From Frigoribacterium faeni (lineage in GTDB: Bacteria > Actinomycetota > Actinomycetes > Actinomycetales > Microbacteriaceae): 51,456 bases of DNA. Position 1 is the stretch's first letter. Each line of letters opens with the position of its first letter. The notes beneath the pieces were generated by a model that saw only the letters and a program-made list of their open reading frames with translations, made no database searches and was not told the DNA's origin. The stretch covers positions 1,371,465-1,422,920 of the forward strand of contig NZ_JAAOYW010000001.1 of assembly GCF_011761235.1 (NCBI RefSeq), read 5' to 3'. The position numbers and the translations under genes are program-made. This document shows, piece by piece, positions 1 to 49,745 of this stretch.

Positions 1-250
1 GGACGATGCACCCCGTCGTTTCGGGGTGCATCGTCCACTTCGGGGTGCGCGGGACGGGAGGAGGCGCGGCGGCGGAGAGGAGGGCCGCGGCGGCGGGCCG
101 GCGGGAGAATAACGCGCAGCGCTGCCGCGCGCGGGCCCGGCGGCGGCGAGGACCGGACGGAACACCCCGAAGTGGACCATGCACCCCGTCGTTTCGGGGT
201 GCATCGTCCACTTCGGGGTGCGGCGGGACGGGAGGAGGCGCGGCGGCGGG
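1..250. repeat. Tandemly arranged pair of near-identical palindromic blocks, no gene in 1-335
   Basis: Two copies of a block of about 75 bp begin at 1 and at 174. They differ by one base in the left stem and one inserted base, and both continue into the same GC-rich tail. Each block holds a palindrome with the loop TCGTTT. The first copy is cut by the window edge (arms 1-15 and 22-36). The second is complete (see the terminator at 163-220). The remainder up to 335 is GC-rich with no plausible reading frame. The block lies downstream of the minus-strand histidine kinase gene, where a terminator is expected. Confidence 0.85.
163..220. terminator. Long palindrome with doubled arms, downstream of the histidine kinase
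   Basis: The 26-bp arms at 163-188 and 195-220 are complementary except at one position and are separated by the loop TCGTTT. Within each arm the 7-mer CACCCCG (or its complement) occurs at both ends, so the element reads R-spacer-R-loop-R'-spacer'-R'. There is no T-tract. Its position 3' of the kinase gene suggests a terminator or RNA-stabilising hairpin; this function is inferred. Confidence 0.6.
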
Positions 251-335
251 ACGGCGAGGGCCGGCGGGCAGCAGGAGAAGGCGCGGCGGCGGGCCGCAGG
301 GACGGCGGGCAGCAGGAGGGGGCGCGGAGCGCGGG

Positions 336-1949
336 TCAGCCGGCGTCGGCGGGGAGGTCGACCACGAAGCGCGCCCCGCCGAGGGGCGCGGTGCCGACCC
401 GCACCGTCCCGCCGTGCACCCGCACGATCTCGGCGACGATCGCGAGGCCGAGGCCGCTGCCCCCGGCGTCGCGGTCGCGCGCCTCGTCGAGCCTGACGAA
501 CCGGTCGAAGACGCGCGCGCGGTCGACCTCGGCCACCCCGGAGCCGTCGTCGTCGACGGTGAGCACGGCACGGCCCTCGGCGGTCTCGACCAGCCCGACG
601 GCGACCGTCGTGCGGGCGTGCCGCGACGCGTTGGCGACGAGGTTCCGCACGACCTGGCCGAGCAGTCCCGCGTCGCCCCGCACCCGGGCCGGGCCGACCG
701 CGGTGGCGTCGACGGTCACGCCGGCGGTCTCGCGCAGACGCGCCGCCTCCGTGAGGACGAGGTCGTCGAGGTCGACGGGGCGGCGGGTCACCCCGAGCGC
801 TCCCTCGTCGGCGCGGGCCAGCACGAGCAGGCCCTGGACGAGGCCGGTGAGGCGCGCCTCCTCGCCGAGGACGGTGCCGGCCAGGGCCCGCCCGTCGATG
901 CTGCCGGGGTGCAGCAGCGCCACCTCCGCGTGCTGCCGGATCGTCGCGAGCGGCGTCTTGAGCTCGTGCGAGGCGTCGCCGACGAACCGCCGCTGGGCGG
1001 TCGCCGACGCGTCGAGCCGGTCGAGCATCCCGTTGAGGGTCGCCGCGAGGCGTGACACCTCGTCGCCGCCGCCCGGGTCGGCGAGACGGTGCGACAGGTT
1101 CGCCGCGGTGACCTCGGCCACCTCGCGCCGCATCGACTCGACCGGTCGCAGGGCGCGCCCGACCACGAACCAGGTCGTCACCCCCAGCACCAGGAGCGCC
1201 ACGGGCACGGCCACGCCGAGCGTGAGCAGGCTGGCCGAGGAGGCGGCCTGCGCCTCGTCGAGGGAGCGCACGGCCACGACCTGCCACCTCGTCGTCACGG
1301 TCTCGACCTCGTCCGCGGACGTCGCGTCGTCGTCGGACGAGGAGGCGTCGGCCGAGTCGTCGGACGCACCGTCGGCCGGATCGTCGGCCGAGTCGTCGGA
1401 CGCGTCGTCGGACGTGTCGTCGTCGCCCCCGCCCGACGAGCCGCCACCGCGGCCACCCGAGTCGTCGCCGGTCGCGTCGTCGTCGCCGCCCGAGGCCGAG
1501 GCCGACGCCGAGGGAGCAGGGCTCGGCGTGGTCGTCGCGACCGACTCCGCGTCGTCCGTCTCGACGACGAAGTCGTCGCCGTCGAGCGAGACCCGGCTGC
1601 CCGCGGCCGCCCCGGCGAGCTCGCGGGCGTGGCCGGCCAGGTCGTCGTCGCCTCCGGCGGCGACGAGCGAGCCGGCGGCGTCGAAGACGGCGACGAGCGA
1701 CCCGTCGGCCTCGCCCGCAACCGCCACGGCCGGCGTCGAGCCGCCGGCGAGGGCCGCGACCGCTCGGTCGACGTCGGCGGAGGCCGCCGACCGTGGGGCG
1801 TCGGCGAGCACCGCCTGCTGCACCAGGGCGAAGACGAGGGCGAACACCCCGAGTGTGAGGGCGACCGCGACGACGGCGGCCGCGGTGATGCGGACCCGCA
1901 GCGAGCCGCGGCGACCCCGGGGGCGGACACGACCGGCGTCGTCAGCCAC
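336..1949 (-). CDS. Sensor histidine kinase, HAMP type, with acidic low-complexity sensor loop
   Basis: A 537-residue membrane kinase, partner of the response regulator just upstream. A first membrane helix lies near 21-43 and a second near 238-264. HAMP follows to about 317, then the phosphoacceptor motif DASHEL with His328, N-box residues near 436-440, the G1 motif DDDGSG near 467 and G2 GSGLGL near 497. The extracytoplasmic loop is odd: about residues 141-214 are almost only Asp, Ser, Gly and Ala, which could bind cations or act as a flexible spacer. The GTG start overlaps the regulator's last 8 bases, and GGAGG lies 7-8 bases upstream, so translation is probably coupled. The ligand is unknown. 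Confidence 0.95.
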   Translation of the reverse strand: MADDAGRVRPRGRRGSLRVRITAAAVVAVALTLGVFALVFALVQQAVLADAPRSAASADVDRAVAALAGGSTPAVAVAGEADGSLVAVFDAAGSLVAAGGDDDLAGHARELAGAAAGSRVSLDGDDFVVETDDAESVATTTPSPAPSASASASGGDDDATGDDSGGRGGGSSGGGDDDTSDDASDDSADDPADGASDDSADASSSDDDATSADEVETVTTRWQVVAVRSLDEAQAASSASLLTLGVAVPVALLVLGVTTWFVVGRALRPVESMRREVAEVTAANLSHRLADPGGGDEVSRLAATLNGMLDRLDASATAQRRFVGDASHELKTPLATIRQHAEVALLHPGSIDGRALAGTVLGEEARLTGLVQGLLVLARADEGALGVTRRPVDLDDLVLTEAARLRETAGVTVDATAVGPARVRGDAGLLGQVVRNLVANASRHARTTVAVGLVETAEGRAVLTVDDDGSGVAEVDRARVFDRFVRLDEARDRDAGGSGLGLAIVAEIVRVHGGTVRVGTAPLGGARFVVDLPADAG

Positions 1950-2619
1950 CCCGCGCCTCCAGCCGGTAGCCCGCCCCGCGCAGGGTCACGATCGCCTCGC
2001 GGCCGAAGGGCCGGTCGACCTTGTTGCGCAGGTGCCGCACGTACACCTCGACGATGTTGGGGTCGCCCTCGAAGTCGTCGTTCCAGACGCCGTCGAGCAC
2101 CTCGCGCTTCGTCACGACGCTGCCGGCCCGCCGCATCAGGAACTCGAGCACCGCGAACTCGCGGCTCGTCAGCTCGATCGCCTGGTCGCCCCGGCGGACG
2201 TCGCGCGACGCGGGGTCGAGCCGCAGGTCGCCGGCCTCGAGCACGACGGGACGCTCGCGGGCCCCGCGGCGGACGAGCGCACGGAGGCGCGCCAACAGCA
2301 CCGCGAACGAGAACGGCTTGGTGAGGTAGTCGTCCGCGCCGGTGTCGAGGGCCTCGACCTGGTCCCACTCGCCGTCCTTGGCCGTGAGCATGATGACCGG
2401 CGTCCAGTCGCCTCCTTCGCGCATCGCCCGGCAGACGGCGTAGCCGCTCATGCCGGGCAGCATGATGTCGAGCACGACCACGTCGTAGCTGCCCTCGCGG
2501 GTGCGCCAGAGGGCGTCGACGCCGTCGCCCGCCACGTCGACGGCCATGCCCTCGGCCTCGAGCCCGACGCGGAGCCCCTCGGCCAGGGTCGGCTGATCCT
2601 CGACGACGAGCACGCGCAC
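1942..2619 (-). CDS. OmpR/PhoB-family response regulator
   Basis: A 225-residue two-domain regulator. The receiver domain holds the acidic pair near Glu7-Asp8, the phosphoacceptor Asp51 in VVLDIMLPG, Thr79 and Lys101. A winged-helix DNA-binding domain spans about 127-222. It is the first gene of a two-gene unit with the kinase. Upstream, at 2674-2692, the 8-mer GCTGAAGC is repeated at an 11-bp period, the classic geometry of OmpR-family sites, so autoregulation is plausible. The target genes are not evident from this window. Confidence 0.95.
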   Translation of the reverse strand: MRVLVVEDQPTLAEGLRVGLEAEGMAVDVAGDGVDALWRTREGSYDVVVLDIMLPGMSGYAVCRAMREGGDWTPVIMLTAKDGEWDQVEALDTGADDYLTKPFSFAVLLARLRALVRRGARERPVVLEAGDLRLDPASRDVRRGDQAIELTSREFAVLEFLMRRAGSVVTKREVLDGVWNDDFEGDPNIVEVYVRHLRNKVDRPFGREAIVTLRGAGYRLEARGG

Positions 2620-2673
2620 GGCAGCCCCTTCCCTGCGCGCACCCTGCCCGCGAGCCCATCCTGGCGCGGGCGC

Positions 2674-2692
2674 GCTGAAGCGGGGCTGAAGC
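2674..2692 (-). promoter_or_regulatory. Direct repeat at 11-bp period, candidate binding site for the adjacent response regulator
   Basis: GCTGAAGC occurs at 2674-2681 and again at 2685-2692 (read on the minus strand as GCTTCAGC twice). One copy per helical turn is the usual arrangement for OmpR-family dimers. It lies 55-73 bp upstream of the regulator start. Binding is inferred. Confidence 0.5.
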
Positions 2693-2725
2693 GCGGGACG
2701 GAGTGCGGGGCGCGGCGCAGCCGCC

Positions 2726-3478: not shown

Positions 3479-3582
3479 GGTGTGCCTCTTCCTGTGCGTC
3501 GTGGGGTGCTCCTCGTCGAGCCGCCCTCGACCATACGCCCGCATGCACCCACCAGCAACACCTGTCGCACATCGCGGAGATC

Positions 3583-3603
3583 ATTTACTTAGGCGAGCTA
3601 AAT
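3583..3603. promoter_or_regulatory. AT-rich dyad between SDR and MarR genes, candidate MarR operator
   Basis: In a very GC-rich background this site is AT-rich and contains TTAG-N5-CTAA (3589-3601), flanked by ATTTA and TAAAT. It sits directly upstream of the marR ribosome-binding site and in the divergent intergenic region. MarR proteins commonly bind such dyads next to their own gene. The centres of the two half-site pairs differ by 2 bp, so the exact operator is uncertain. Confidence 0.5.
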
Positions 3604-3620
3604 GTCCATACTGGGAGGCG

Positions 3621-5470: not shown

Positions 5471-5523
5471 CCCCGCCGTCGTCCGCTGGGCGCAGAGGGG
5501 TACCGCGGTCGCCCGCGGCGGCG

Positions 5524-5556
5524 TACAGTCCGCCCATGACGAGTCCTCGGGCCTGA
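5524..5556 (+). promoter_or_regulatory. -10 box followed by a six-codon leaderless ORF (MTSPRA)
   Basis: TACAGT (5524-5529) is followed after 6 nt by an ATG that opens a six-codon frame ending in TGA at 5554-5556. This is the same -10-to-start spacing seen at many real starts in the window. The next gene begins 37 nt after this stop with its own ribosome-binding site. The short frame may be a leader peptide, or the ATG may merely mark the transcription start. Confidence 0.45.
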
Positions 5557-5593
5557 TCCGGCTCGGTGCGGCCTCGTCGTGAGAGGTCCCGTC

Positions 5594-6638: not shown

Positions 6639-6741
6639 GCCGGCCGGCGGCCCGGCGGCCCGGCGGCCCGGCGCCCTGCGGCACCCCCGCCCGCGGCACC
6701 CCGCCCGCGACCCCGCCTCCCCCGTGACCTAGGCTCGCCCC

Positions 6742-11671: not shown

Positions 11672-11684
11672 TCTGAGCGCCCGT

Positions 11685-31195: not shown

Positions 31196-31212
31196 CCGGT
31201 CCTCCCCCGAGA

Positions 31213-31278
31213 CGGGCGGGTCCGTCGCCGCCGGGCGCTCTCGAGCGCCCGGTCGCGACGGACCCGCCCGTTCTCTAT
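31213..31278. terminator. Two-stage hairpin with T-rich tail after the DUF6458 gene
   Basis: A perfect 16-bp outer stem (31213-31228 with 31257-31272) encloses a 9-bp inner stem CCGGGCGCT/AGCGCCCGG. The tail TTCTCTAT follows, making this the only hairpin here with a T-rich end. Its outer-stem core GGGCGGGTCCGTCG is shared with the hairpin at 47694-47759. Confidence 0.88.
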
Positions 31279-38245: not shown

Positions 38246-38439
38246 GCTGAGGCGCGCTGAGCTAGGCCGGGGCGACGGGCCGGACGGTGCAACGGGCCGG
38301 GACCCTGCGCAGGGGCGTGACCGGATCGTGACCGGACGCGGAGGTTCGTCATCCTCGGGGAGGACGGAGCGCCTCCTCGTGCTCGCTACCGTGAGGCAGG
38401 CGCCCCGACAGGAGGGGCGCCGGGACCGAGGGGGACGCC

Positions 38440-39156
38440 ATGACCGGCCGTCGACGCACCACCACGCTGGGGGCCGCCGCCCTCGCCTCCGCCGCGCTCA
38501 TGGTGCTCACCGGGTGCGCGGGCGGCGCCGGCGACGACGTCGCGGCCGGCCCGACCGAGACCGTCGCCGTGCCGACGCCCACGGCGACGCCGGGCAGCTC
38601 GGCCTCGCCGGCCCCGACGGCGTCCGACTCGCCCGCGCCCTCGACCGCGCCGAGCGAGACGCCCGAGGCGGCGCCCGTCGTCACGATCCCGACCGACTGC
38701 ACGCAGATCGTCGACGGCGCGACCGCCGCCGCCACGTTCGGCGACCTGCCGCTCAACCCTAAGGGGATCCCCCGGCGCGACGGCACGGTCCGCGGGGCGC
38801 GCACGCCGTCCGTCCCCGAGGCCGGTGCCCAGCCGTTCCAGATCGTCGACGCGGCCGCCGAGCTCGACTGCTACTGGCGCGACCCGGAGGCCGACGTCAC
38901 CGGCATCGGGGTGTCCCTCGGGCGTCTCGACCAGCCCACCGCCGCCTCCCTGCTCGACCAGGTCGCCGCCTCCGGTGCGACGTGCCAGGAGGCGCACGGC
39001 GGCCAGCTCTGCCAGCAGCCCCTCGACGTGGCCGAGTACCCGATCGAGGCGGCGCAGACGTGGTTCGTCCGCGGCGACCTGTTCATCGCCGTGGAGCAGT
39101 TCAACGTGCCCACGAACGACCTGATCGGGTCGATGCTCACGCACCTGTCGCGCTGA
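38440..39156 (+). CDS. Lipoprotein of unknown function
   Basis: A 238-residue exported lipoprotein with lipobox LTGC (Cys26). A Ser/Thr/Pro-rich linker of about 50 residues follows. The globular part begins with TDCTQIVDGA and contains four further Cys (DCYWRD, ATCQEAHGGQLCQQP), so one or two disulfides are likely. The pattern resembles small actinobacterial lipoproteins of the DUF3558-like kind, but I cannot assign a family firmly. A G-rich ribosome-binding site precedes the ATG. Confidence 0.82.
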   Translation: MTGRRRTTTLGAAALASAALMVLTGCAGGAGDDVAAGPTETVAVPTPTATPGSSASPAPTASDSPAPSTAPSETPEAAPVVTIPTDCTQIVDGATAAATFGDLPLNPKGIPRRDGTVRGARTPSVPEAGAQPFQIVDAAAELDCYWRDPEADVTGIGVSLGRLDQPTAASLLDQVAASGATCQEAHGGQLCQQPLDVAEYPIEAAQTWFVRGDLFIAVEQFNVPTNDLIGSMLTHLSR

Positions 39157-39236
39157 GGCGCGGCGCGCGCCCGTGCCGCACGGTGCCCGTGCAGCGCGCG
39201 GTGCCCGGGCCGCGCGCCCGACCGTGCCGCACGCCC

Positions 39237-39298
39237 GACACCGTCGAGTGAACGGAACACCGAGATAGTGGGCGGTGTTCCGTTCACTCGGCGGTGTC
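39237..39298. terminator. 26-bp-arm palindrome between convergent genes, doubled-arm type
   Basis: Arms 39237-39262 and 39273-39298 pair with one mismatch around a 10-nt loop. ACACCG stands at both ends of the left arm (39238-39243 and 39257-39262). It lies between the lipoprotein gene and the convergent LLM oxidoreductase gene, as expected for a bidirectional terminator. The core GTTCCGTTCAC recurs in the palindrome at 40445-40504. Confidence 0.8.
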
Positions 39299-39329
39299 AG
39301 GAGGGGTGCGCGGCGCGCGGGCGCGGGGG

Positions 39330-40358
39330 TCAGCGCGGGGGCGCCGCCGGCGACCAGCCGAGCTCGGGGCCGAGGTGCTCGGCGAGGTCGGTGAGGATCT
39401 GCGCGTAGTCGTCGGGCTCGAGGGAGAAGGGCAACGCGAAGGCGACCTCGTCGACGGCCTGGTAGGCCGGGTCGGCGTGCAGCGCGTCCGCGATCTCGGC
39501 CGAGGTGCCGACCAGGTCGGCCGCGAAGAGCATGCCCGCCGGGCCCTGCGGCACGCCGACCCGCCCCGCCCGCGACTCGGCGTAGGCGGCGTACCGGGCC
39601 CGCTGCTCGGGCGTGGCCGAGTCGGTCGGCACGACGACGAGCCCCTGCGACACCCGCGCGGAGGCGCCCGCCGGGTGGGCGTCGCGGTACGCGTCGATCT
39701 GGGCGCGCTGGTTCACGGCGAAGTCGGTGCCGTGCTCGGCGCGGGTCACGCTCGACGTGAGCAGGTGGAACCCGTTCTCGCCCGCCCACACCGCCGACCG
39801 GGTGCTGCCGACGCCGCACCAGAGCCGGTCGACCAGGCCGGGGCTGTGCGGCTGCACGGTGTCGGAGAACTCCTCGATGCCGCGGCGGCCCGGCGACGCG
39901 CTGACGACGTCGCCCCGCACGAGGTCGCGGAGGCGCAGGAGGCGGTCGTCGCCGAGGTCCTCCTGGGCGGCGGTGTCCGGATAGATCGCGTCGCGGTACA
40001 GGTCGAAGTTCATGGGCGTGCCCGACGAGAAGCCGGGGTTCAGCCGGCCGCCGAGCAGCACGTCGACGGTGCCGAGGTCCTCGGCGAGACGGAACGGGTT
40101 CTCCGCGCCGATCGGCGTGACGGCGGTGCCGAGCTCGATGCGGCTGGTGCGCTGCGAGGCCGCGGCCATGATCGCGACCGGCGACGAGATGCCCGGCTGG
40201 AGGTGCCGGTGGCGCAGCCACGCGCTGTCGAGGCCGAGCTGCTCGCCGCGCTCGATGACGCGCAGGGTGTCCTCGTGGCCGGCGGCCGGGGACGCGGGGT
40301 CGAACGACCCGATCGTGAGGAAGCCGAGACGCTGCAGGGGGGAACCGTGGACGGGCAT
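39330..40358 (-). CDS. LLM-class flavin-dependent oxidoreductase
   Basis: A 342-residue luciferase-like monooxygenase family protein: the N-terminal strand RLGFLTIGSFDP, the RHLQPGISSP segment, ELGTAVTPIGAENPFRLAEDLGTVDVLLGGRLNPG near 76-110, and the late LVGTSAEIADAL. Such enzymes use reduced FMN or F420; which one cannot be told here. GAGACT ends 6 nt before the ATG (minus strand, 40365-40370) and no ribosome-binding site is seen, so it is likely leaderless. Confidence 0.9.
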   Translation of the reverse strand: MPVHGSPLQRLGFLTIGSFDPASPAAGHEDTLRVIERGEQLGLDSAWLRHRHLQPGISSPVAIMAAASQRTSRIELGTAVTPIGAENPFRLAEDLGTVDVLLGGRLNPGFSSGTPMNFDLYRDAIYPDTAAQEDLGDDRLLRLRDLVRGDVVSASPGRRGIEEFSDTVQPHSPGLVDRLWCGVGSTRSAVWAGENGFHLLTSSVTRAEHGTDFAVNQRAQIDAYRDAHPAGASARVSQGLVVVPTDSATPEQRARYAAYAESRAGRVGVPQGPAGMLFAADLVGTSAEIADALHADPAYQAVDEVAFALPFSLEPDDYAQILTDLAEHLGPELGWSPAAPPR

Positions 40359-40444
40359 GCCCCGAGTCTCGCAGGCGGCACGGCCTCACGGCCCGCGCCC
40401 CGCAGGCCCGGCCCGCTCCCCGCAGACCCGGCTCGCCCCCCGCA

Positions 40445-40504
40445 GAACCACGTTCCGTTCACCGAACCACGGTGCAACGGGGTTCGGTGAGCGGAACGGG
40501 GTTC
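40445..40504. terminator. 24-bp-arm palindrome, doubled-arm type
   Basis: Arms 40445-40468 and 40481-40504 pair with two mismatches around a 12-nt loop. GAACC stands at both ends of the left arm, and GGTTCGG occurs at 40481-40487 and 40500-40506. It lies 3' of the hypothetical gene ending at 40547 and 5' of the LLM gene. Confidence 0.72.
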
Positions 40505-40546
40505 GGCGCTGTGCGAGGCGGGCGCCCGACCCGGCCGCGCGGGCCG

Positions 40547-41161
40547 CTAGAGCTCCCAGTAGGGACGCGCCCGTCGGGCCGCCGCGTCCAGCTCGAGGTG
40601 GTCGAAGCGGTGCCGCGTCTCGGCGATGCCGAACTCGGGCCAGACGATCACGAGGTCGATCGGGCCGTCGGCGGGCAGCGGCCAGAGCCAGAGCGTGCTC
40701 GTCGCGGTCATGATCCGGTCGTCGCCCGACCCGCCGTGGGGCGCGAGCGACAGCACCGGGCCGACGGGCGCCTCCGTGTGGTCGCCGTCGAAGAAGTGGC
40801 CGGGCCCCGCGATCGCCGTGGCGCCGTCGGCCAGCTCGACCCCGAAGCGGAGGCCGTCGGAGGCGTCGGCCAGGCCGGGCCGGAAGCGCCCGCCCTCGAA
40901 GCGGTCGACCAGGGCGGCCCAGGCGCGGCGCCCCTGCTGCGGGTTCCGCAACACCGACTCGATCTCGAACGAGACGCCGGAGGGGTGCACCGCGACGCCC
41001 GTCACGGCGACCGCGACCTCGTCGGTGCGGGCGAGCAGGGCGGCCTCGGGGAGGCGCCCCGGCAGCCAGGCGGGCGGCGGCTGCGTCCAGGCCGGCGGCA
41101 CCCACACCTCCTCGGGCTGGTCGTCGTCGTCGGTCGGCGGCACCTCGGGGAAGAAGGACAT
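40547..41161 (-). CDS. Conserved-looking hypothetical protein
   Basis: A 204-residue cytosolic protein I do not recognise. The N-terminus is acidic then Pro/Trp-rich (DDDDQPEEVWVPPAWTQPPPAWLPG). The remainder looks like a beta-sandwich: ALLARTDEVAVAVTGVAVHPSGVSFEIESVLRNP in strand-rich pattern, then LWLWPLPADGPIDLVIVWPEFGI. ATG at 41161 is chosen because GAGGTG lies 6 bases upstream; an upstream in-frame ATG would extend it into the adjoining palindrome. Confidence 0.75.
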   Translation of the reverse strand: MSFFPEVPPTDDDDQPEEVWVPPAWTQPPPAWLPGRLPEAALLARTDEVAVAVTGVAVHPSGVSFEIESVLRNPQQGRRAWAALVDRFEGGRFRPGLADASDGLRFGVELADGATAIAGPGHFFDGDHTEAPVGPVLSLAPHGGSGDDRIMTATSTLWLWPLPADGPIDLVIVWPEFGIAETRHRFDHLELDAAARRARPYWEL

Positions 41162-41218
41162 GGCCCACCTCACCACGTCGGACGGGACGGCGCCCGAACG
41201 ACCGCCCAGGCAGCCGCT

Positions 41219-41278
41219 ACACCCCGAAAACGGCATCACACCCCGGGAAAAGGGGGTGTGATGCTGGTTTCGGGGTGT
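41219..41278. terminator. 26-bp-arm palindrome, doubled-arm type
   Basis: Arms 41219-41244 and 41253-41278 pair with two mismatches. ACACCCCG occurs at 41219-41226 and 41238-41245, framing the left arm. It lies 3' of the minus-strand gene at 41322. Sequence and design resemble the palindrome at 163-220 (CACCCCGAA and GCAT cores are shared). Confidence 0.78.
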
Positions 41279-41321
41279 GCCGCGGGATCGAGGGCGCGGC
41301 GCGCCGCTCAGGCGGCGGCGC

Positions 41322-41990
41322 TCACCACGACGCGGGCAGCGGCGCCCCGGGCGGCGGCGGCTGCTCCACGAGGGCGACGGCGTCGTCGAGCCCGACGTGG
41401 CCGGGGAAGTTGTAGCGCCCGAAGCGCCCCGTCGGGTCGTTCGACGAGGTCGGCATCGTGACGGAGGTGCGGCGCAGCGCCTCCGCGAGGACCTCCGTCG
41501 AGGTGTCGTCGAGGCGGGGGCCCCGCCGGTCGCGCAGGATGATCTCGACCCGCGCCTCCTTCGCGGTCAGGCGGAGCACGAGCACGTCCGACCGCAGGGC
41601 CGGGTCGAGCGGGACGAGCGCCCGGTCGACGTGTGCGAGCGCGAGGGTGCGCCGACCCGCGCGCAGCTCGTCGGTGTCGAGGTTCACGAAGGGCTGCGGG
41701 TAGATCGCGTTGCGGACGGCCGTCACGGCGACGAAGAGCGCCACGACGAGGGCGACGCCGAGCAGCAGGTTGCTGGGGAACGGCACGACGTCGACGAAGA
41801 AGCCGCCGGCCTGCGAGCCGAACCAGACGAGCGTCACGACGAAGAACACCGCACCGTAGCCGGCCCACCCCGACAGCCAGTCGCGCTCGCCGATCCGCAC
41901 CCAGCCCGCGGGGAACACGGCGGCGGCCCCGTCAGAGGACGAGGAGGCGGCGGGCTCGGAGGCCTCGTCGGGCGCGTCGGGATCGCTCAC
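41322..41990 (-). CDS. Two-helix membrane protein, paralogue of the gene at 36250
   Basis: A 222-residue protein with a Ser/Asp-rich N-terminus, membrane helices near 42-60 and 74-93 and a cytosolic C-terminal domain (NLDTDELRAGRRTLALAHVDRALV). NDPTGRFGRYNFPG (184-197) matches the paralogue encoded at 36250. Function is unknown. GTG at 41990 has TAGCGT 6 nt upstream; that -10 box contains the TAG stop codon of the preceding gene. This gives the gene its own leaderless transcript. Confidence 0.82.
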   Translation of the reverse strand: MSDPDAPDEASEPAASSSSDGAAAVFPAGWVRIGERDWLSGWAGYGAVFFVVTLVWFGSQAGGFFVDVVPFPSNLLLGVALVVALFVAVTAVRNAIYPQPFVNLDTDELRAGRRTLALAHVDRALVPLDPALRSDVLVLRLTAKEARVEIILRDRRGPRLDDTSTEVLAEALRRTSVTMPTSSNDPTGRFGRYNFPGHVGLDDAVALVEQPPPPGAPLPASW

Positions 41991-41999
41991 ACCACGACG

Positions 42000-42584
42000 C
42001 TAGCGCGGCGCGGCGGCGGGCGGCCCGGCGGGCAGCGCCTCCCAGACCTCTCCCCAGAGCGCCTCGAAGCGGGCGGGCGTGATCCGGCCGGCGGCGGCGT
42101 CGCGCTCGACGGCGACCAGCCGCGCGGCCGTCGCCCGGACCCGCGCGGCGTCGCCCACGACGACGAGCCCCGACGGCGTGCAGGTCGACGAGGCGGTCAG
42201 CTCGCGCACCGACCCGCGCACGCGCCGCGTGCCGAGCTCGAGCGAGGCCGCCCCCGCGACCCAGACCGCCGCGGCCGCGAGCGCGGCGACCGGCGGGGCG
42301 ACCTCCGCGGCGATCGCGACCAGCAGGCACACGGCCGCCAGGACGGCGCCGGCGGCCGGCCAGACCTGACGGACGTGCAGGAGGCGGCGGTCGGCCGGGG
42401 TCGTGCCGGGCCGGTTCACGCGCAGGGTCACCTGCTGCACGACGGTCGACCGGGCCGGCGACCGGTCGACCGAGCCCCAGACGTGGCTGCCGTCGACGGC
42501 GTCGTGCACGAGGTGCCGCACGGCGTCGGCCGGGTGCACGCCCGGGCGCGCCGCGGCGTGCGCCGCCGGGTGCTCGGCCGTCAC
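42000..42584 (-). CDS. Two-helix membrane protein of unknown function
   Basis: A 194-residue protein I do not recognise. A hydrophilic N-terminal ~70 residues precede two hydrophobic helices (about 75-93 and 96-115). A C-terminal region with RVRATAARLVAVERDAAAGRITPARFEALWGEVWEALP is likely a helical SHOCT-like short domain. The GTG start overlaps the stop of the upstream gene (GTGA), so it is the second gene of a coupled pair. Confidence 0.75.
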   Translation of the reverse strand: MTAEHPAAHAAARPGVHPADAVRHLVHDAVDGSHVWGSVDRSPARSTVVQQVTLRVNRPGTTPADRRLLHVRQVWPAAGAVLAAVCLLVAIAAEVAPPVAALAAAAVWVAGAASLELGTRRVRGSVRELTASSTCTPSGLVVVGDAARVRATAARLVAVERDAAAGRITPARFEALWGEVWEALPAGPPAAAPR

Positions 42585-43087
42585 CGCGACGCCGCCCGCC
42601 GGACCCGGCCGACCGTGACGTCGCCCGGGCACGGCACGGCCAGGAGGTCGCCCGCGCGCAGGTCGGCGGGCAGGTCGACGACGGCGACGGACGGCCCGTC
42701 GTCCTCGAGGCCGACCACGACCGCGACGTCGTGCGCCGTCGAGACGCGGCCGACGAGGCGCAGCTCGCCGAGCACGGCCGGCACGGCGCCGAGCCGGGCG
42801 TCGAGCTGCACGACGAGCGCGCCGGAGCTGTGCCGGGCCACGTGGCGCACCGCCACGACGATCGCCGTCGCGTCGTCGACGGGCGAGGGCCGCCCGCCCG
42901 AGCGGGGCAGCACGGCGGTGCCTGTGTGCACGCACGGGGTCTCGCAGAGGTCGGCGAGGCGCACGAGCGAGACGCCGTCGATGACGACGTCGTCGACGGT
43001 GGCGCGGGTGCCGAGGGGCCAGGCGTCGAGGAGGAGCGGGTCGGCGATCGAGCGCCGCATCGAGGGGAGGATGTCGGTCAGCGTCAC
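42581..43087 (-). CDS. Hypothetical cytosolic protein behind a leader ORF
   Basis: A 168-residue protein without a recognised domain. The sequence is strand-rich (ATVDDVVIDGVSLVRLADL, ATAIVVAVRHV, DVAVVVGLEDDGPSVAVVDLP) and may form a small beta-barrel. The start is inferred: GTG at 43087 is the first good start, has no ribosome-binding site, and overlaps the stop of a 22-codon upstream ORF (GTGA). It is therefore probably translated by re-initiation. The next gene is coupled in the same way. Confidence 0.72.
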   Translation of the reverse strand: MTLTDILPSMRRSIADPLLLDAWPLGTRATVDDVVIDGVSLVRLADLCETPCVHTGTAVLPRSGGRPSPVDDATAIVVAVRHVARHSSGALVVQLDARLGAVPAVLGELRLVGRVSTAHDVAVVVGLEDDGPSVAVVDLPADLRAGDLLAVPCPGDVTVGRVRRAASR

Positions 43088-43152
43088 GAGAGCGGGCGGG
43101 CCGGTCGGGGACGTCGCCGCGGCTGCCGGCCGCGGGGTGCGTGGGTGGTCAT
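43084..43152 (-). CDS. Leader ORF, 22 codons, Arg/Pro-rich
   Basis: ATG at 43152 opens a frame MTTHAPRGRQPRRRPRPARP-LS ending in TGA at 43084. The -10-like TAGGAC (43159-43164, minus strand) ends 6 nt before it, as at other leaderless starts here. Seven of the 22 residues are Arg and five Pro, which could slow ribosomes. The stop overlaps the GTG of the next gene, so it may set translation of that gene. It could be regulatory rather than a functional peptide. Confidence 0.5.
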   Translation of the reverse strand: MTTHAPRGRQPRRRPRPARPLS

Positions 43153-43197
43153 GGCTCAGTCCTACGGCCCGCGGCGGCGGGCGCCGACGGCCCTGGC

Positions 43198-43313
43198 GGG
43201 ATCCGTGCGGCACGGGCGCCGATCCTGACGGGATCCGTGCGGGCCGCCGCCCCGGCCGGCCCGGAGGTCGCTGCCCCGCCTGCGACTCAGGTCGCAACCG
43301 AGGTCCCGACCTC
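43198..43313. promoter_or_regulatory. Operator-like repeats in the divergent region before the serine hydrolase
   Basis: GGGATCCGTGCGG is repeated at 43198-43210 and 43230-43242, exactly 32 bp (three helical turns) apart. Two adjacent dyads follow: TGCGAC-TCAG-GTCGCA (43281-43296) and GAGGTC-CC-GACCTC (43300-43313). They could bind the NarL-type regulator encoded downstream or another factor. This is inferred from symmetry and spacing only. Confidence 0.4.
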
Positions 43314-43354
43314 CGCCCCCTGTGCCGCGGCGTCCGGTCCGCGAGCGTTGAGGC

Positions 43355-45481
43355 ATGACATCGACACCCCTCCCGACCGCACCGCGGACGGCCCCTCGGG
43401 CCCGCCGCCTCCTGCCCCGACTCGCCGCCGCCGCGGCCGTCGTGGCCCTCTCCGTCCCCCTCGCCGCCTGCTCGGCCGGCGCGGCCGACCCGGCCGGCGC
43501 GGCCGACCCGGCCACCGCGACCGGCGCGACCTCCCCCGCCGCCGACACCGCGCCTCCTTCGGCCCCCCAGCACCAGCCCGGCGGCCGCTCCCTCACGCAG
43601 GACGACGTGGACGCCTGGCTCGACGGCGCGGTCGGCTCGGCGCTGCAGACCACCGGCATCCCCGGGGCGACCGTCTCGGTCGTGTCGGACGGCCGGCTGC
43701 TCACGGCGCGTGGCTACGGCCTCGCCGACACCGGCACCGAGGGCTCGCCGGCCCGCCCCGTCGACCCCGAGGACACCCTGTTCCGCATCGGCTCCGTCTC
43801 GAAGGTCGTCTCGGCGACCGCGATCATGCAGCTCGTCGAGCAGGGCGAGCTCGACCTCGACGCCGACGTGCAGCAGTACCTCGACTTCGACCTCGACACC
43901 CCGAAGGGCGCCGTCACCCTGCGGCACCTGCTCACGCACACCGCCGGCTTCGAGGAGGTCATCTCCGGCCTCATCGGCACGCCCGGAAGCGAGCAGACGC
44001 TCCGCGAGGCGGTCTCGGAGGCTCCCCCGGCGCAGGTCTACGAGCCCGGCACCACGCCCGCGTACTCGAACTACGGCGCCACGCTCGCGGGGTACGTCGC
44101 CGAGCGCGTCAGCGGACGTCCGTTCGCCGAGCTGGTGCAGGACGAGGTGCTCGACCCCGCCGGCATGACCTCGTCGTCGTTCGAGCAGCCGCTGCCCGCC
44201 GACCTCGACGCCCGCCTCGCCAAGGGCTACCCGGACGACTCGAAGCCGGCGTACCCGACCGAGGTCGTGAACGCCGCCCCGGCCGGAGCGATGTCGGCCT
44301 CGGCGACCGACATGGCGCGCTTCATGCTCGCCCACCTCGGCGACCTGCCCGCCGAGCAGTCGCTGCTCGAGCCCGCCACCCTCGACGAGATGCACAGCCC
44401 CGCCCTCGACGCCGACCAGCTCGGCACGCTCGCCGTCGGCCAGCGCATGGACCTCGCGTTCTTCGACGACAGCACCCCCGGCCTGCCCGCCTTCGGCCAC
44501 GACGGCGACACGCAGGTGTTCCACAGCGCCATGCGGATGTTCCCCGACGCCGACGCGGGCATCTTCGTGTCGTTCAACGGCTCGGGCCGCGCCGCGACCG
44601 ACACCCTCGACCTGCGCACCACGGTGCTGCAGGGCTTCGCGGACCGCTACCTGCGCGAGGCGTCCGCCGACGACGACACGACCCGAGGAGGCGCTGCCCG
44701 CTCCGACGGCACCGCCGCGGCCGCCGCGATGGCCGGCGTCTACACCTCCTCCCGCTCGCCCGTCACGAACCCCGGCGCCCTGCTCGCCCTGAGCGGCCAG
44801 ACGACGATCGTCCCGCGCTCCGACGGGACCGTCGCCGTGACCCCGAAGCCGCTCGCCACCACGACCGGCGTGTACGAGCTGGTCGACGACCACCTGTGGC
44901 GCGAGGTGGGCGGCGACGCCCTGCTCGCGACGCGGACCGACGGCGAGGGCGACGACGCGACCGTGTCGGCGATCTCGTGGGGCGCCTCCTTCACGATGCT
45001 GCGGGCGCAGCCCTGGCAGGTCGCGTCGGCCGTCCTGCCGCTCGTGCTCGTCTCCGTGGCGGTGCTGCTCGTCTCGGTGGTCGCCTGGCCGACCGCGGCC
45101 CTCGTCGGCCTCGGTCGCCGCACCGGGCGCCGTGACCTCGTCGTCGCCCGACGCCCCGAGACCGGACGCCGCCGCCGCGCGCTGCTGCTCTCGCGCCTCG
45201 GCCAGGTCGCCACGCTGCTCGCGCTCGTCGGCTGGGGCATCACGGCCGTGCAGGCCATGGCGTTCCAGGACGTGTCGGCAGGGTCGCTCCGCGTGCTGCA
45301 GGTGCTGCAGCTGGCCGGCGTGGTCGCGATCGTGCCCGCCGCCGTCGCCGTCGTGCAGGCCGTCCGCGAGCGTCGGGGCTGGGCCTCGGTGACCGGACGC
45401 GTGCTCGTCGTCGCCGCCCTCGTCGCCCTGGCCGTGTTCGCGGTCACGTGGCGTCTGCTCTCCCCGAGCGTGAGCTTCTGA
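43355..45481 (+). CDS. Membrane-anchored serine hydrolase, beta-lactamase/PBP4-like family
   Basis: A 708-residue exported protein. Lipobox LAAC (Cys39) ends the signal peptide. The beta-lactamase-type domain spans about 80-430: Ser147-x-x-Lys150 in GSVSK, Tyr237-Ser-Asn239 in AYSNY, and the third motif His382-Asp-Gly. A linker domain then leads to four membrane helices in the last ~160 residues. Periplasmic S12 peptidases such as ClbP also end in membrane helices, but here both ends are anchored. The substrate is unknown; a D-amino-acid peptide is plausible. GAGCGT ends 6 nt before the ATG. A two-component system follows. Confidence 0.9.
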   Translation: MTSTPLPTAPRTAPRARRLLPRLAAAAAVVALSVPLAACSAGAADPAGAADPATATGATSPAADTAPPSAPQHQPGGRSLTQDDVDAWLDGAVGSALQTTGIPGATVSVVSDGRLLTARGYGLADTGTEGSPARPVDPEDTLFRIGSVSKVVSATAIMQLVEQGELDLDADVQQYLDFDLDTPKGAVTLRHLLTHTAGFEEVISGLIGTPGSEQTLREAVSEAPPAQVYEPGTTPAYSNYGATLAGYVAERVSGRPFAELVQDEVLDPAGMTSSSFEQPLPADLDARLAKGYPDDSKPAYPTEVVNAAPAGAMSASATDMARFMLAHLGDLPAEQSLLEPATLDEMHSPALDADQLGTLAVGQRMDLAFFDDSTPGLPAFGHDGDTQVFHSAMRMFPDADAGIFVSFNGSGRAATDTLDLRTTVLQGFADRYLREASADDDTTRGGAARSDGTAAAAAMAGVYTSSRSPVTNPGALLALSGQTTIVPRSDGTVAVTPKPLATTTGVYELVDDHLWREVGGDALLATRTDGEGDDATVSAISWGASFTMLRAQPWQVASAVLPLVLVSVAVLLVSVVAWPTAALVGLGRRTGRRDLVVARRPETGRRRRALLLSRLGQVATLLALVGWGITAVQAMAFQDVSAGSLRVLQVLQLAGVVAIVPAAVAVVQAVRERRGWASVTGRVLVVAALVALAVFAVTWRLLSPSVSF

Positions 45482-45546
45482 TGCGCCGTCCACAGGGCGG
45501 GACGCCCCGCGACCGCGACGACGCCGGCACCTGGCATGCTCGGGAC

Positions 45547-46926
45547 GTGACCTCCTCTCCCTCCCTCTCCGCGCAGCACGAGAGCCGCTCCGCGCAGCAC
45601 GAGAGCACGGTGCCGGGCGCCGCCGCGACACGACGGGCGCTCGCCCGGCTCGGCGTGCGCAGCCCCCTCGGGCGCGACGTGGTCCTGGCCGCGGTCTGGA
45701 CGGTCGTCACCGTCGCGCTGCTCGCCTCGCTGGTGGGGGCAGGCGAGTTCCTCGGGGCGTCGCGCAGCATCCCTGCGGCGCAGATCACGGTCGTGCTCGT
45801 GCTCGCCGTCGTGCAGTGCCTGCCGCTCGCGCTGCGACGGCGCTGGCCGGCGGCGACGCTCCTGGCGATCAGCGTGGTGCAGGCCGGCCTGCTGGCCGTG
45901 CTGCCCACGGGCCTCGCGCTCTGGACGGCGGCGCCCGTCGTCGCCGCGTACACGGTCGGCTCGCTGCTGACCACGCGCCGCACCGTCGGGGTCGTGCTCG
46001 TCGCGATCGCGGTCGAGAGCGTCGGCGCCGTCGTCGGCGCGACGGCCGTCGCCAAGCAGGCGCTCGGCGCGCAGGGCGGGCTCGGCGGCCTGGGCGGGAT
46101 CGACGCCCCGGGCACGAGCGTGGTCGTCGAGGCGCTCGCGCTGGTCGCGACGGCCGTCCTCGTCAACGGGATCAGCGCCTCCGTCGGCTCGTGGGTCGCC
46201 CTGCGACGTCGGCACGAGAGCGACAGCCGGGCACGGGCCGCCGAGTCGGTCGAGCACCAGGCGACGCTGACCCGGTCGGCCGTGGCCGCCGAGCGCACCC
46301 GCATGGCCCGCGAGCTGCACGACATCGCCGCGCACCACCTCACCGGGCTCGTCGTGCAGGCGGGCGCCGCCGAGCGCCTCGTCGACGTCGACCCCGAGCG
46401 CGCGAAGCAGTCGCTGCGCAGCGTCCGCTCGCAGGGCCGCGAGACGCTCGACTCGCTGCGGTCGATCGTGGGCATCCTGCGCGAGACCGGCGACGGAGCC
46501 GACGGCACGGCCCCCGTGCCCGGGCTGCGCGACGTCGGAGAGCTCGTCGCCGCGGCCCGCACGGCCGGCACCGCCGTCGACGAACAGGTCGACGGCGAGC
46601 TGCCCTCGCTGGCGCCGCTCGCCGACGTCACCGCCTACCGCACCGTGCAGGAGGCGCTGGCCAACGCCCGCAGGCACGCCCCCGACGCCCCGGTGCAGCT
46701 GACCACGACCGCCCGGCCGGGCCGGCTCGTGCTCGTCGTCGAGAACGAGGTGCCGTCCCGGCCCGCGAGCTCGGCCCCGGCGGGCTACGGCCTCGTCGGG
46801 ATGCGCGAGCGCGCGGCGCTCGTCGGCGGGCTGCTCGAGGCCGGCCCGACCGGCACGGGCACCTGGCGGGTGCGGCTCGAGCTGCCGGTCGAGGCCGAGC
46901 GCGTCGTGGGCGGGAGCGCCTCGTGA
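45547..46926 (+). CDS. NarL-type sensor histidine kinase
   Basis: A 459-residue kinase. The N-terminus carries a duplicated AQHES motif (9-13 and 16-20). About five to six membrane helices lie between 44 and 220. The HisKA_3 dimerisation domain has His258 in RELHDIAAHH. The ATPase domain shows QEALANARRHA and GYGLVGMRER. There is no large sensor domain, so it probably senses within the membrane. GTG at 45547 has CATGCT 6 nt upstream (leaderless). Its stop overlaps the next gene's start (GTGA). Confidence 0.93.
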   Translation: MTSSPSLSAQHESRSAQHESTVPGAAATRRALARLGVRSPLGRDVVLAAVWTVVTVALLASLVGAGEFLGASRSIPAAQITVVLVLAVVQCLPLALRRRWPAATLLAISVVQAGLLAVLPTGLALWTAAPVVAAYTVGSLLTTRRTVGVVLVAIAVESVGAVVGATAVAKQALGAQGGLGGLGGIDAPGTSVVVEALALVATAVLVNGISASVGSWVALRRRHESDSRARAAESVEHQATLTRSAVAAERTRMARELHDIAAHHLTGLVVQAGAAERLVDVDPERAKQSLRSVRSQGRETLDSLRSIVGILRETGDGADGTAPVPGLRDVGELVAAARTAGTAVDEQVDGELPSLAPLADVTAYRTVQEALANARRHAPDAPVQLTTTARPGRLVLVVENEVPSRPASSAPAGYGLVGMRERAALVGGLLEAGPTGTGTWRVRLELPVEAERVVGGSAS

Positions 46927-47684
46927 TCCGGGTCGTGCTCGTCGACGACCAGTCGATCGTGCGGGCCGGGTTCCGCATCGTCCTCGAGACCGCAGGAGGC
47001 GTCGAGGTCGTCGGCGAGGCCTCCGGCGGCCGCGAGGCGGTCGAGGTCGTGCGGCGCACCCGTCCCGACGTGGTCGTGATGGACGTCCGCATGCCCGGCG
47101 GCGACGGCATCGAGGCGACGCGCGTGATCACGAGCGAGGCGGCGGGCGACGGCGGCTTCGGCGGGGGCGACGGCGACGGCGCTGGGGGCGCAGGCGGCGC
47201 GGGCGCAGGCGGTGCGGGCGCCGGCGGGGCCGCGGGCGCGGCCGCGTCGGACGGCCCGCGCGGCCCCGCCGTGCTCGTCGCCACGACGTTCGACCTCGAC
47301 GAGTACGTCTTCGGCGCCCTCGAGGCCGGGGCGAGCGGCTTCGTGCTCAAGGACGCCGAGCCCGACGAGTTCGTCGCCGCGGTGCGAGCGCTCGCGTCGG
47401 GCCGCGCCGCGATCGACGGCGCGACCACCCGCCGGGTCATCGCGGAGTTCACGCGACGGCGGGCCGCCTCCTCGTCCGGGGCCTCGGTCGACGTGCTCAC
47501 GCCCCGCGAGCAGGAGATCGTGCGGCTGCTCGGCGAGGGCCTGTCGAACGACGAGATCGGCGAGCGGCTCGTCATCGAGACGAGCACCGTGAAGTCGCAC
47601 CTGACGCGGGTGATGACCAAGCTCGACACCCGTGACCGGCTGCAGACCGTCGTCTGGGGCTACCGCTCGGGCCTGCTGCGCTGA
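46923..47684 (+). CDS. NarL/FixJ-family response regulator with Gly/Ala insertion in the receiver
   Basis: A 253-residue regulator, co-translated with the kinase. Receiver: Asp8-Asp9, phosphoacceptor Asp54 in VVMDVRMPG, Thr121 and Lys143 in VLKD. A LuxR-type helix-turn-helix lies at about 188-248 (LTPREQEIVRLLGEGLSNDE). Residues about 72-115 are a Gly/Ala/Asp insertion between helix 3 and strand 4, where NarL proteins have only a short loop; the normal length would be near 210. The conserved residues remain, so the protein should fold. Targets are unknown, perhaps the upstream serine hydrolase. Confidence 0.93.
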   Translation: MIRVVLVDDQSIVRAGFRIVLETAGGVEVVGEASGGREAVEVVRRTRPDVVVMDVRMPGGDGIEATRVITSEAAGDGGFGGGDGDGAGGAGGAGAGGAGAGGAAGAAASDGPRGPAVLVATTFDLDEYVFGALEAGASGFVLKDAEPDEFVAAVRALASGRAAIDGATTRRVIAEFTRRRAASSSGASVDVLTPREQEIVRLLGEGLSNDEIGERLVIETSTVKSHLTRVMTKLDTRDRLQTVVWGYRSGLLR

Positions 47685-47693
47685 CGCCCCGGC

Positions 47694-47759
47694 AGGGCGG
47701 GCGGGTCCGTCGCCGACGGTCCGTCGCGACCGCCCGCCCCCGACGGACCCGCCCGCCCT
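47694..47759. terminator. Perfect 19-bp hairpin after the NarL-type regulator
   Basis: Arms 47694-47712 and 47741-47759 are perfectly complementary. The 28-nt interior contains a second GGTCCGTCG (47718-47726), a repeat of 47704-47712, so alternative pairings are possible. The core GGGCGGGTCCGTCG is shared with the terminator at 31213. Confidence 0.85.
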
Positions 47760-47795
47760 CGGGCACCGTCAGGGGCAGGGGCCGATGATGGCCCG

Positions 47796-48248
47796 ATGAA
47801 CGACGCCATCGTCACGCCCCTCGGCTTCTCGCACGTGCGCCTCACGGTCACGGACATCCACCGCAGCAAGGCCTTCTACGAGCAGCTGTTCGGGATGCCC
47901 CCGGGCAGCGACTTCAGCGACCAGATCGACGACCCGACCGTCCACGACGACCCGCAGCGCACCTACGGCGGCTGCTCGTTCACGTTCGGCGGGCAGACGC
48001 TCGGGCTGCGGCCGGTCGCGCCGGCCGGCGACCGCTTCGACCCGGACAGGGTCGGCCTCGACCACCTGAGCCTGCGCGTCGGCTCCGTCGACGAGCTGTA
48101 CGAGGCCGCCGAGCGGCTGGAGGCGGCGGGCATCGAGCACGGCGAGGTCACCGACCTGCCCGCCTTCGGCCTCGTGGTGCTCTCGCTGCAGGACCCGGAC
48201 GACGTCAACCTCGAGCTCGCCGCTGCCCGCCCCGGCGGCCGCGCCTAG
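47796..48248 (+). CDS. Glyoxalase/VOC-superfamily protein
   Basis: A 150-residue protein with two paired beta-alpha-beta-beta-beta modules. It begins GFSHVRLTVTDIHRSKAFYEQLFG; the second module contains VGLDHLSLRVGSVDELYEAAERLEAAG and ends VLSLQDPDDVNLELA. His and Glu ligands typical of metal-binding VOC proteins are present (His in FSHV and LDHL, Glu in LELA). Function could be dioxygenase, lyase or resistance; it cannot be fixed. GATGAT ends 6 nt before the ATG, a weak leaderless pattern. Confidence 0.88.
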   Translation: MNDAIVTPLGFSHVRLTVTDIHRSKAFYEQLFGMPPGSDFSDQIDDPTVHDDPQRTYGGCSFTFGGQTLGLRPVAPAGDRFDPDRVGLDHLSLRVGSVDELYEAAERLEAAGIEHGEVTDLPAFGLVVLSLQDPDDVNLELAAARPGGRA

Positions 48249-48306
48249 CCCGCGCCCGCACCTAGCCCGCGCCCGCGCCTGGGCCGCGGTTCGGCCGCCG
48301 AGCGAC

Positions 48307-48367
48307 GCTCAGGTGTCGCGACGCGGGCGCTCGCCTCGCTCGAGACCCCACGACGCGTCACCTGAGC
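48307..48367. terminator. Imperfect 17-bp hairpin after the VOC gene
   Basis: The left arm starts GCTCAGGTG at 48307 and the right arm ends CACCTGAGC at 48367; inward pairing continues to about 17 bp with two mismatches. GCGACG stands at 48302-48307 and 48318-48323, a weaker version of the doubled-arm design. It lies 58 bp after the VOC stop. Confidence 0.6.
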
Positions 48368-48437
48368 ACGGCTCGACGTCGACTCGTGCGCCGGCACCCG
48401 GATGCGCGACGGCCGCGATGAGCCGTACGCTCCGACC

Positions 48438-49610
48438 ATGACACCGAGGTCCGCCCGCCCGCGCCCGCGCCCCGGCCGGTCGACGCCGCCCGTCGCCGCC
48501 GCCACAGCCGCCGCAGCCGTCGCCGCCGTGCTCGCCCTGGTGCTGGGCGGGTGCACCTCGTCGACCGGCGCCTCCTCGTCCGAGGCGACCGGCGCCTCCT
48601 CGTCCGACGCGACGTCGAACGGCAGCACCGACGGCACCGGCCCCGCCGACGACGCGGACGCCACCCGGGCCGACGCCGCCGCTCCGGCCTTCGACGTCAC
48701 GGGCTTCGTGCTCGAGGGAGCCGCCCCCGACGTCGTCGACGCGAGCGCCGCCTCCCTCGACGTGCTCGCCGTCGACGGCGTGCTGCTCGCGCCCGACGGG
48801 GCCGGCGTCGGCAGCCCGTCGTCCGAGGCCGAGGCGCAGCGCGACGCGGCGCACGCCCGCGGGCTCCAGGCGCAGCTGCTCGTGAGCAACTACGACGAGC
48901 GGCTCGGCGACTTCAGCGGCCCGCTGGCGACCGCCCTGCTGGCGAGCCCCGAGAACAGGTCCGTCGTCGTCGCCGACCTCGCCGCCGACGTCACGGTCGG
49001 CGGCTGGGACTCGCTGATGATCGACCTCGAGGGGCTCTCGGCCGACGACTCGGCGGGGCTCACCGCCCTCGTCGCCGAGCTGCGCGCCGCCATCGGCCCC
49101 GACGTGCGGCTCGACGTCGCGCTGCAGGCGTCCACCACGGTCGAGGGGTGGGCCGAGCTCGGCTACGACGTGCCGGCGCTGGCCGCGTCGGTCGACCACC
49201 TCACGCTGATGGCCTACGACCAGCACGGCCCCTGGGAGCCCGACGACCCCGGCCCCGTCGGCTCCCTCGACTGGACGATCGACTCCCTCGCGGCCCTCGC
49301 CGAGCTCGCGCCCACCGACCAGATCGTGCTCGGCGTCGCGGGCTACGGCTACCGCTGGGGCGGCGACGAGCCCGCCGGGCAGCTGTCGGACGAGGAGGCG
49401 CGCGACCGTGTCGAGGACGCCGGCGGATCCGCTCGCTGGGACTCCCGGGCCGCCGAGCAGACGGCGTCGCTCGACGGCGGCGAGGTGCTCTGGTGGTCGG
49501 ACGCCCGCTCGCTCGACACCCGCGTCTCGCTCGCCCGCGGGCTCGGGCTCGCCGGGGTCGCCGTCTGGTCGCTCGACCTCAGCGACCCCGTCGAGGTCGA
49601 CGCGGACTAG
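48438..49610 (+). CDS. GH18-like glycosyl hydrolase lipoprotein
   Basis: A 390-residue exported lipoprotein (lipobox LGGC, Cys39). After an Asp/Ser/Ala-rich linker the domain follows the GH18 fold of spore-cortex and chitinase-like enzymes: LLVSNYDE, then the catalytic-strand segment WDSLMIDLEG with Asp196 and acid Glu198, MAYDQHGPW near 255, GVAGYGYRW, and the last strand GVAVWSLDL. It probably cleaves beta-1,4-linked GlcNAc-containing polymer or binds it; the classical DGxDxDxE is only partly kept. TACGCT ends 6 nt before the ATG: leaderless. Confidence 0.85.
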   Translation: MTPRSARPRPRPGRSTPPVAAATAAAAVAAVLALVLGGCTSSTGASSSEATGASSSDATSNGSTDGTGPADDADATRADAAAPAFDVTGFVLEGAAPDVVDASAASLDVLAVDGVLLAPDGAGVGSPSSEAEAQRDAAHARGLQAQLLVSNYDERLGDFSGPLATALLASPENRSVVVADLAADVTVGGWDSLMIDLEGLSADDSAGLTALVAELRAAIGPDVRLDVALQASTTVEGWAELGYDVPALAASVDHLTLMAYDQHGPWEPDDPGPVGSLDWTIDSLAALAELAPTDQIVLGVAGYGYRWGGDEPAGQLSDEEARDRVEDAGGSARWDSRAAEQTASLDGGEVLWWSDARSLDTRVSLARGLGLAGVAVWSLDLSDPVEVDAD

Positions 49611-49675
49611 GGCCGGGAGCGGCGCGCCGCGCCGCGCGCGGCCCGGCGCGCCCGGCTCGCGCGGCCCTCGTCCGC

Positions 49676-49745
49676 CGAGGGCGGGTCTTCCGGGCCGAGG
49701 GCGGGTCGCCGCGCACCCGCCCTCGCCCCGGAACACCCGCCCTCG
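49676..49745. terminator. 31-bp-arm palindrome, the clearest doubled-arm example
   Basis: Arms 49676-49706 and 49715-49745 pair with two mismatches around an 8-nt loop. CGAGGGCGGGT occurs twice in the left arm (49676-49686 and 49696-49706) and its complement twice in the right arm. It lies 65 bp after the GH18-like gene. Confidence 0.82.

Follow-up and report, generated by a model that had tools for sequence, protein, structure and literature searches.

Bacteria commonly carry short palindromic repeats, of which the best understood depend on REP-associated tyrosine transposases (RAYTs). Miniature inverted-repeat transposable elements (MITEs) are short and non-autonomous, have terminal inverted repeats and occur in many copies. 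Rho-independent terminators consist of a strong hairpin downstream of genes, many of them in convergent gaps, followed by a T run. Here we describe intergenic palindromes from Frigoribacterium faeni, found in the final 51,456 bases (the window) of a 1.42-Mb contig (NZ_JAAOYW010000001.1) of a 3.20-Mb genome. Each arm carries a short word, R, twice in direct orientation and 19 or 20 bp apart, which gives the plan R-S-R-loop-R'-S'-R'. We lean towards reading these palindromes as a REPIN-like superfamily of non-autonomous mobile repeats with doubled sites, and infer their movement from near-identical copies in unrelated surroundings.

REPINs are inverted doublets of repetitive extragenic palindromic (REP) sequences moved by RAYT transposases, and the palindromes described here resemble them, as that source portrays them, in being extragenic, dispersed inverted doublets of near-fixed length that form one hairpin, show compensatory changes and have the doublet as their unit (PMC3116915). 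They also reach high copy number, with at least 30 places in the F. faeni genome for one family, B (R = CGAGGGCGGGT; at least 66 of 70 bases covered, 40 of 129 candidates scored), and 59 places for the 19-bp class in the single-contig chromosome of G008. They lie outside genes as called by a simple codon model, with none of 106 elements of the 19-bp class and one of 85 in another element set inside a called gene. Unlike REPINs, they occur in 16 genomes without a Y1 transposase and have no GTAG foot; within 8 bp outside the 208 ends of 104 elements, GTAG and CTAC were both absent, while CGTC occurred 15 times and GACG 10 times. The half-element is, as far as inspected, not clearly palindromic itself and instead carries the direct repeat at 19-20 bp. 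CGTC-tagged REPs are also short palindromic repeats that form dimers, with no associated transposase gene known, but their stems measure 8-9 bp against 26-33 bp here, and CGTC lies near just those 15 of 208 ends; Proteobacteria and other phyla are named as their hosts, and the string "actinobacter" is absent from the main text of that paper (PMC3733652).

The elements share with MITEs their short length, lack of autonomy, terminal inverted repeats and many copies, and appear to differ in that the regions scanned showed no parent transposon sharing their ends, target duplications were not evident, and the arms are separated by a loop alone. With Rho-independent terminators they share the strong hairpin downstream of genes and many convergent gaps, but they lack the T run in the range scanned (38300-51000), carry the doubled R at fixed spacing and fall into repeat families. 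In the openly accessible literature we recognised no paper describing these repeats. If the proposal holds, this superfamily, which spans the genus, keeps a rigid geometry of four sites with matching words and lacks a RAYT, would point to another route by which such repeats spread, and the geometry would offer a clear signature for finding it.

A word repeated at fixed offset in each arm

Five long palindromes had been singled out in an initial annotation because each arm is framed by its own direct repeat, and all five were confirmed in position, R word and arm pairing (at most two mismatches). The main regularity, absent from that annotation, is the constant distance between the R copies. 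The word reappears inside the arm at offset 19 in the elements at 163..220, 39237..39298, 40445..40504 and 41219..41278, and at offset 20 in the 70-bp element at 49676..49745 (coordinates are given without strand). The observation is real, and larger than first reported.

The element at 163, of the CACCCCG family (C), has R1 at 163-169, R2 at 182-188, the loop TCGTTT at 189-194, R2' at 195-201 and R1' at 214-220. The ACACCGCC element (family D), in a convergent gap, has R1 at 39238-39243, R2 at 39257-39262, a loop at 39263-39272, R2' at 39273-39278 and R1' at 39292-39297. In the GAACCACG element (family A), R1 occupies 40445-40449, R2 40464-40468, R2' 40481-40485 and R1' 40500-40504; position 6 of R is A in both left-arm copies and C in both right-arm copies. 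The fourth element combines ACACCCCG with a different spacer (R1 41219-41226, R2 41238-41245, R2' 41252-41259, R1' 41271-41278), and the family-B element has its words at 49676-49686, 49696-49706, 49715-49725 and 49735-49745, in the same order. A sixth palindrome, of GGGCGGG type and uncertain family membership, lies in a convergent gap at 31212..31271; each of its arms contains a 6-bp direct repeat at offset 19. There is also a second CACCCCG-family copy at 1..47, first described as truncated and ending at 36; the copy is there, with its loop at 16-21 and a complete right arm at 22-47, and its left arm is cut at base 1 because an assembly gap abuts the window, not for a biological reason (nine Ns at L069:1742-1750 directly precede window base 1, L069:1751). 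Two supposed weaker relatives do not convincingly show the design, since the best offsets at 48307 are 22 and 15 with runs of at most 4, and the arms at 47694 disagree (offset 14 versus 19).

To compare the doubling with chance, palindromes with arms of 22 or more were counted when each arm contained a direct repeat of 5 bp or longer at offset 19 or 20; the control was the same arms with paired columns shuffled and the palindrome kept. Within the window, all five palindromes carried the repeat (shuffled mean 0.08, maximum 2); these were the elements at 163, 31212, 39237, 41219 and 49676, while 40445 fell slightly below the score threshold of the finder and a run of G/C at 51338 was excluded. 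Even samples of 20 x 20 kb, not chosen for elements, gave 2 of 5 in the same genome (shuffled 0.06), 5 of 12 across the genus (0.11) and 0 of 3 in other genomes of the family or order (0.01). Two 400-kb regions around dnaA, element-rich and selected for synteny, gave 22 of 30 and 16 of 30 (0.30 and 0.31), and a mainly Curtobacterium locus set gave 3 of 20, with shuffled means across all sets of 0.01-0.31. Comparison with matched random palindromes, run on samples, does not refute the terminal-repeat reading in Frigoribacterium. Agreement at offset 19 is two-peaked among 211 palindromic 60-bp windows, a set that includes search-found loci, with 106 in the upper group.

Families C, D, A and others have 27-nt arms and a loop of about 6 nt, and a GGAACACC stretch is common to family B and the 19-bp class. 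The arm consensus is RMACCNNN-11 nt-RMACCNNN, with mostly G at position 13 and C at 16 in the spacer, and was drawn from the 104 of 142 elements with ACC in register in both arms, all 142 having been selected for the offset-19 repeat. The N letters vary between families and mostly match between the R copies. The match was measured in 47 distinct arms from 35 elements chosen by a covariance model and not by agreement. R1 and R2 agree there in 43 arms at positions 1/20 (shuffled mean 32.2), 45 at 2/21 (29.2) and 39 at 6/25 (19.5), values that none of 1000 shuffles reached. Agreement is weaker at positions 7 and 8 (reached in 28 and 13 of 1000 shuffles), and positions 3-5 are invariant.

Fifteen diverse elements, picked at 60 bp length, align without gaps and contain 102 two-sided changes, with 92.3% pairing that is partly due to selection. 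Mismatches between the arms are least frequent at the ACC and core and more frequent at the loop end and in some of the spacer. The spacer is still mostly paired despite its sequence drift, which suggests that the whole palindrome matters or is copied whole. In scans limited to the two 400-kb regions, 48 of 51 and 20 of 21 arm matches lay in inverted pairs, just 3 and 1 arms were unpaired, and reversed sequence gave no matches. Thirty-six family-B copies from several genomes have only 2-3 outer bases in common before their flanks diverge, and dispersed copies often have an identical loop, several of these 36 included, which argues for copying of the complete element. One family-B element, at L183:2219-2346 (G008:C1:1011219-1011346), has one arm reduced to a single R and the other made of 5.6 perfect 20-bp tandem units.

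Placement and distribution

The 106 elements of the 19-bp class, a set gathered partly by searches and with several elements per gap, comprise 55 in convergent gaps, 41 in tandem gaps, 9 in divergent gaps and 1 unplaced, whereas 377 background gaps of at least 80 bp divide into 69, 208 and 100. The median distance from element to nearest stop codon in convergent gaps is 36 bp. In another set, seven of nine divergent-gap elements are family-B copies, and arrays of several elements occupy a single gap. All of the window elements had been placed downstream of genes; each does follow at least one gene, but three of them (40445, 41219 and 49676) also precede a predicted start codon by 31-87 bp.

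Elements are concentrated near the replication origin in G008, the one genome in which this bias was measured. The 59 places there, given by 115 covariance-model matches, fall in 47 separate gaps, of which 39 lie in the half nearer the origin (p 2.8e-6); the same half holds 14 of the 15 listed family-B places. In G000, an assembly of unordered contigs, the family-B places fit the same bias, with no match over most of the query in C1:1-890000. The terminus-side third of G008 (1.02-2.23 Mb) holds just 2 of the 59 places.

Across genomes the occurrence is patchy, and copy numbers are lower bounds, several searches having scored limited numbers of candidates. In a search of 60 genomes, family-B matches in G000 to G015 numbered at least 30, 32, 2, 3, 14, 0, 3, 9, 38, 0, 0, 0, 30, 0, 0 and 0 (both strands counted, 15 candidates per genome scored); among the candidates scored, strong matches were mainly in G000, G001, G004, G008 and G012. 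A covariance model of the 19-bp class (27-nt arm, 6-nt loop, 27-nt arm; E-values rough) matched all 16 Frigoribacterium genomes and 4 of 44 other relatives, with 22 matches in G019 and 1-4 in each of the other three. In a sample of Microbacteriaceae it matched 11 of 199 genomes (4 of them Frigoribacterium) and 5 of 85 genera, clearly in 3; two of the five rest on a single genome with 1-2 matches. The offset-19 repeat is evident in L270, L334 and L335, from two other genera, approximate in L333 and not clear in L336 and L337, while four Curtobacterium loci have the same offset with an unrelated word, GGTGCGA.

Proposed mobility and its alternatives

Under the mobile-repeat reading, the entire 60-bp palindrome (70 bp in family B), and not the single arm, would be the unit that moves. 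With R twice per arm, each element would present four sites, and a putative trans-acting recombinase or transposase would recognise either these or the DNA hairpin. New families would arise when all four R copies change and the new version spreads, and survival would be mainly in convergent or downstream gaps and near the origin, as in the one chromosome measured. The initial annotation had suggested switchable terminators, protein-binding sites or a mobile palindromic repeat family, and is partly supported. The last of these fits best, with many near-identical copies in unrelated surroundings and varying presence at orthologous gaps, and the protein-binding sites might be those through which a mover acts. 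A more far-reaching version, which we think less likely than not, is a lineage of tiny mobile palindromes in at least 3, perhaps 5, of the 85 sampled Microbacteriaceae genera. Its mover would be a recombinase outside the Y1 and IS110 groups that reads an 8-bp word at four places per element, rigidly spaced by 19 bp, and a family would acquire a new specificity when all four words are rewritten together.

Turnover was followed over 400 kb around dnaA in G000 and G008, where 263 reciprocal best genes (median protein identity 92.7%) define 158 orthologous gaps. By the finder, 145 of these have no element, 4 have elements in both genomes, 3 in G000 only and 6 in G008 only. The three-gene region of the window itself is broken up in relatives. 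At a luciferase gap, the window has a D element, L103 an A-like one and L106 a remnant, while L104, L105, L107 and L110 have none.

Several of these and other results weigh against movement of single elements. At G000:C2:1016545, scored as present in one genome only, alignment shows a diverged element in G008 too, so some of the other absences could likewise reflect decay of a copy or a faulty assembly, and the remnant at the luciferase gap points to deletion. No clean empty site with both flanks conserved was found, the gap DNA being mostly unalignable between the compared species, and no target duplication was evident by eye in the flanks of the 36 B copies. The flanks of 21 D copies share 10-mers in 144 of 210 pairs (0.69) against 0.22 for control gaps, which could mean that larger segments move or that the target gaps resemble one another. 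Joint changes of R1 and R2 within a single arm number 6, against 0, 2, 0, 0 and 0 at control offsets, in elements whose selection mildly favours such changes; yet 115 R differences between arms are uncoordinated, and independence predicts about 6.9 double mismatches before letter agreement is required. The joint changes could reflect selection on paired sites or slippage between R copies. Neither the Y1 tyrosine transposase (PF01797, RAYT-type) nor the IS110 DEDD transposase (PF01548) was found in any of 16 genus genomes, against 5 of 14 and 4 of 14 in the control rings; no recombinase family was hit by any of 20 flanking proteins, of which two had no match at all. RAYT, IS110 and a neighbouring recombinase gene were rejected as movers on these counts. 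Three further ideas were set aside. Neither 400-kb region contained a longer transposon bounded by such arms, and searches for D-type elements on plasmids and phages had no matches. The search for B, made in plasmids and not in phages, gave one match, which covers 77% of the query, falls within a peptide synthetase gene of Streptomyces and was taken as chance.

The strongest competitor, though we judge it unlikely, is that the elements are bidirectional terminators or 3'-end hairpins protecting mRNA, multiplied by duplication, with the doubled R as a by-product. Their enrichment in convergent gaps (55/106 against 69/377), the median of 36 bp to a stop codon and the very high stability of the full hairpins by computed folding would all suit such a role. 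Yet a pattern scan of 38300-51000, a range that excludes the element at 163, found no T-run terminator (shuffles 0.7), and in one-direction gaps the sense-strand mismatches were 19 G-T (G-U) against 26 A-C. With no preference for G-U, RNA pairing does not look like the constraint. The prevalence of B copies in divergent gaps and the arrays within one gap also sit poorly with termination, which leaves the 19-bp offset and the identity of R1 and R2 unexplained. The switchable form, bistable RNA switches through alternative R:R' pairing, is possible on paper and was rejected on energies as scarcely credible: in all 10 folds (five elements, both strands) the full hairpin is favoured over the alternative by about 24-37 kcal/mol.

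The near-identical composition of R1 and R2, in elements selected for the repeat, and the clustering near the origin (39 of 47 gaps, 14 of 15 listed B places) would also be expected if the elements were bound by a chromosome-organising or regulatory protein reading both R copies of each arm. This role is improbable in our view, because several R words coexist within one genome, the spacers vary in sequence yet remain complementary between arms, and the element content of gaps differs between species. Neutral hairpin-templated slippage, in which template switching that goes back through R turns an R-S-R near an R' into a full palindrome, finds an echo in the 5.6 tandem units near G008:C1:1011235 and in the occasional joint change of R1 and R2 in one arm. 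Alone it could yield neither dispersed near-identical copies with the same loop nor a geometry and RMACC core that recur across several genera, and we consider it very unlikely as the full account. The preferred reading, a mobile repeat superfamily, agrees with those dispersed copies and that shared geometry.

Other features at and near the elements

Rfam gave no match in the window at the gathering threshold, and 43095-43175 is a tRNA-Gly (gcc) gene, the sole window tRNA found by ARAGORN. The gene at 39330-40358 shows 91-95% identity to Frigoribacterium records and 93% to two named Frondihabitans. Close to N gaps or contig ends, long runs of G and C start within or next to elements of the CACCCCG family, at 51292-51455, L002:1-900, L054:1240-1375 and L069:1670-1750. 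They look like sequencing or assembly failure at hairpins, probably from poly-G reads, so the runs at the window end are probably not real sequence. As the elements appear to disturb assembly, draft genomes may understate their copy numbers.

A second family of intergenic palindromes, GGACGGGAGGCGCGGTGCCAG-like, with a loop of 0-5 bases and without the 19-bp repeat, is found at Curtobacterium and Frigoribacterium loci (many of L112-L129; L198, L208 and L209), where it may be the ordinary terminator type. Between convergent genes at L001:950-1800 (G000:C2:941.5-942.4 kb), a tandemly repeated unit of about 430 bp combines one element each of families C and A with a GGAGGCGCGG palindrome and a run of (CACCCCGAAG)n.

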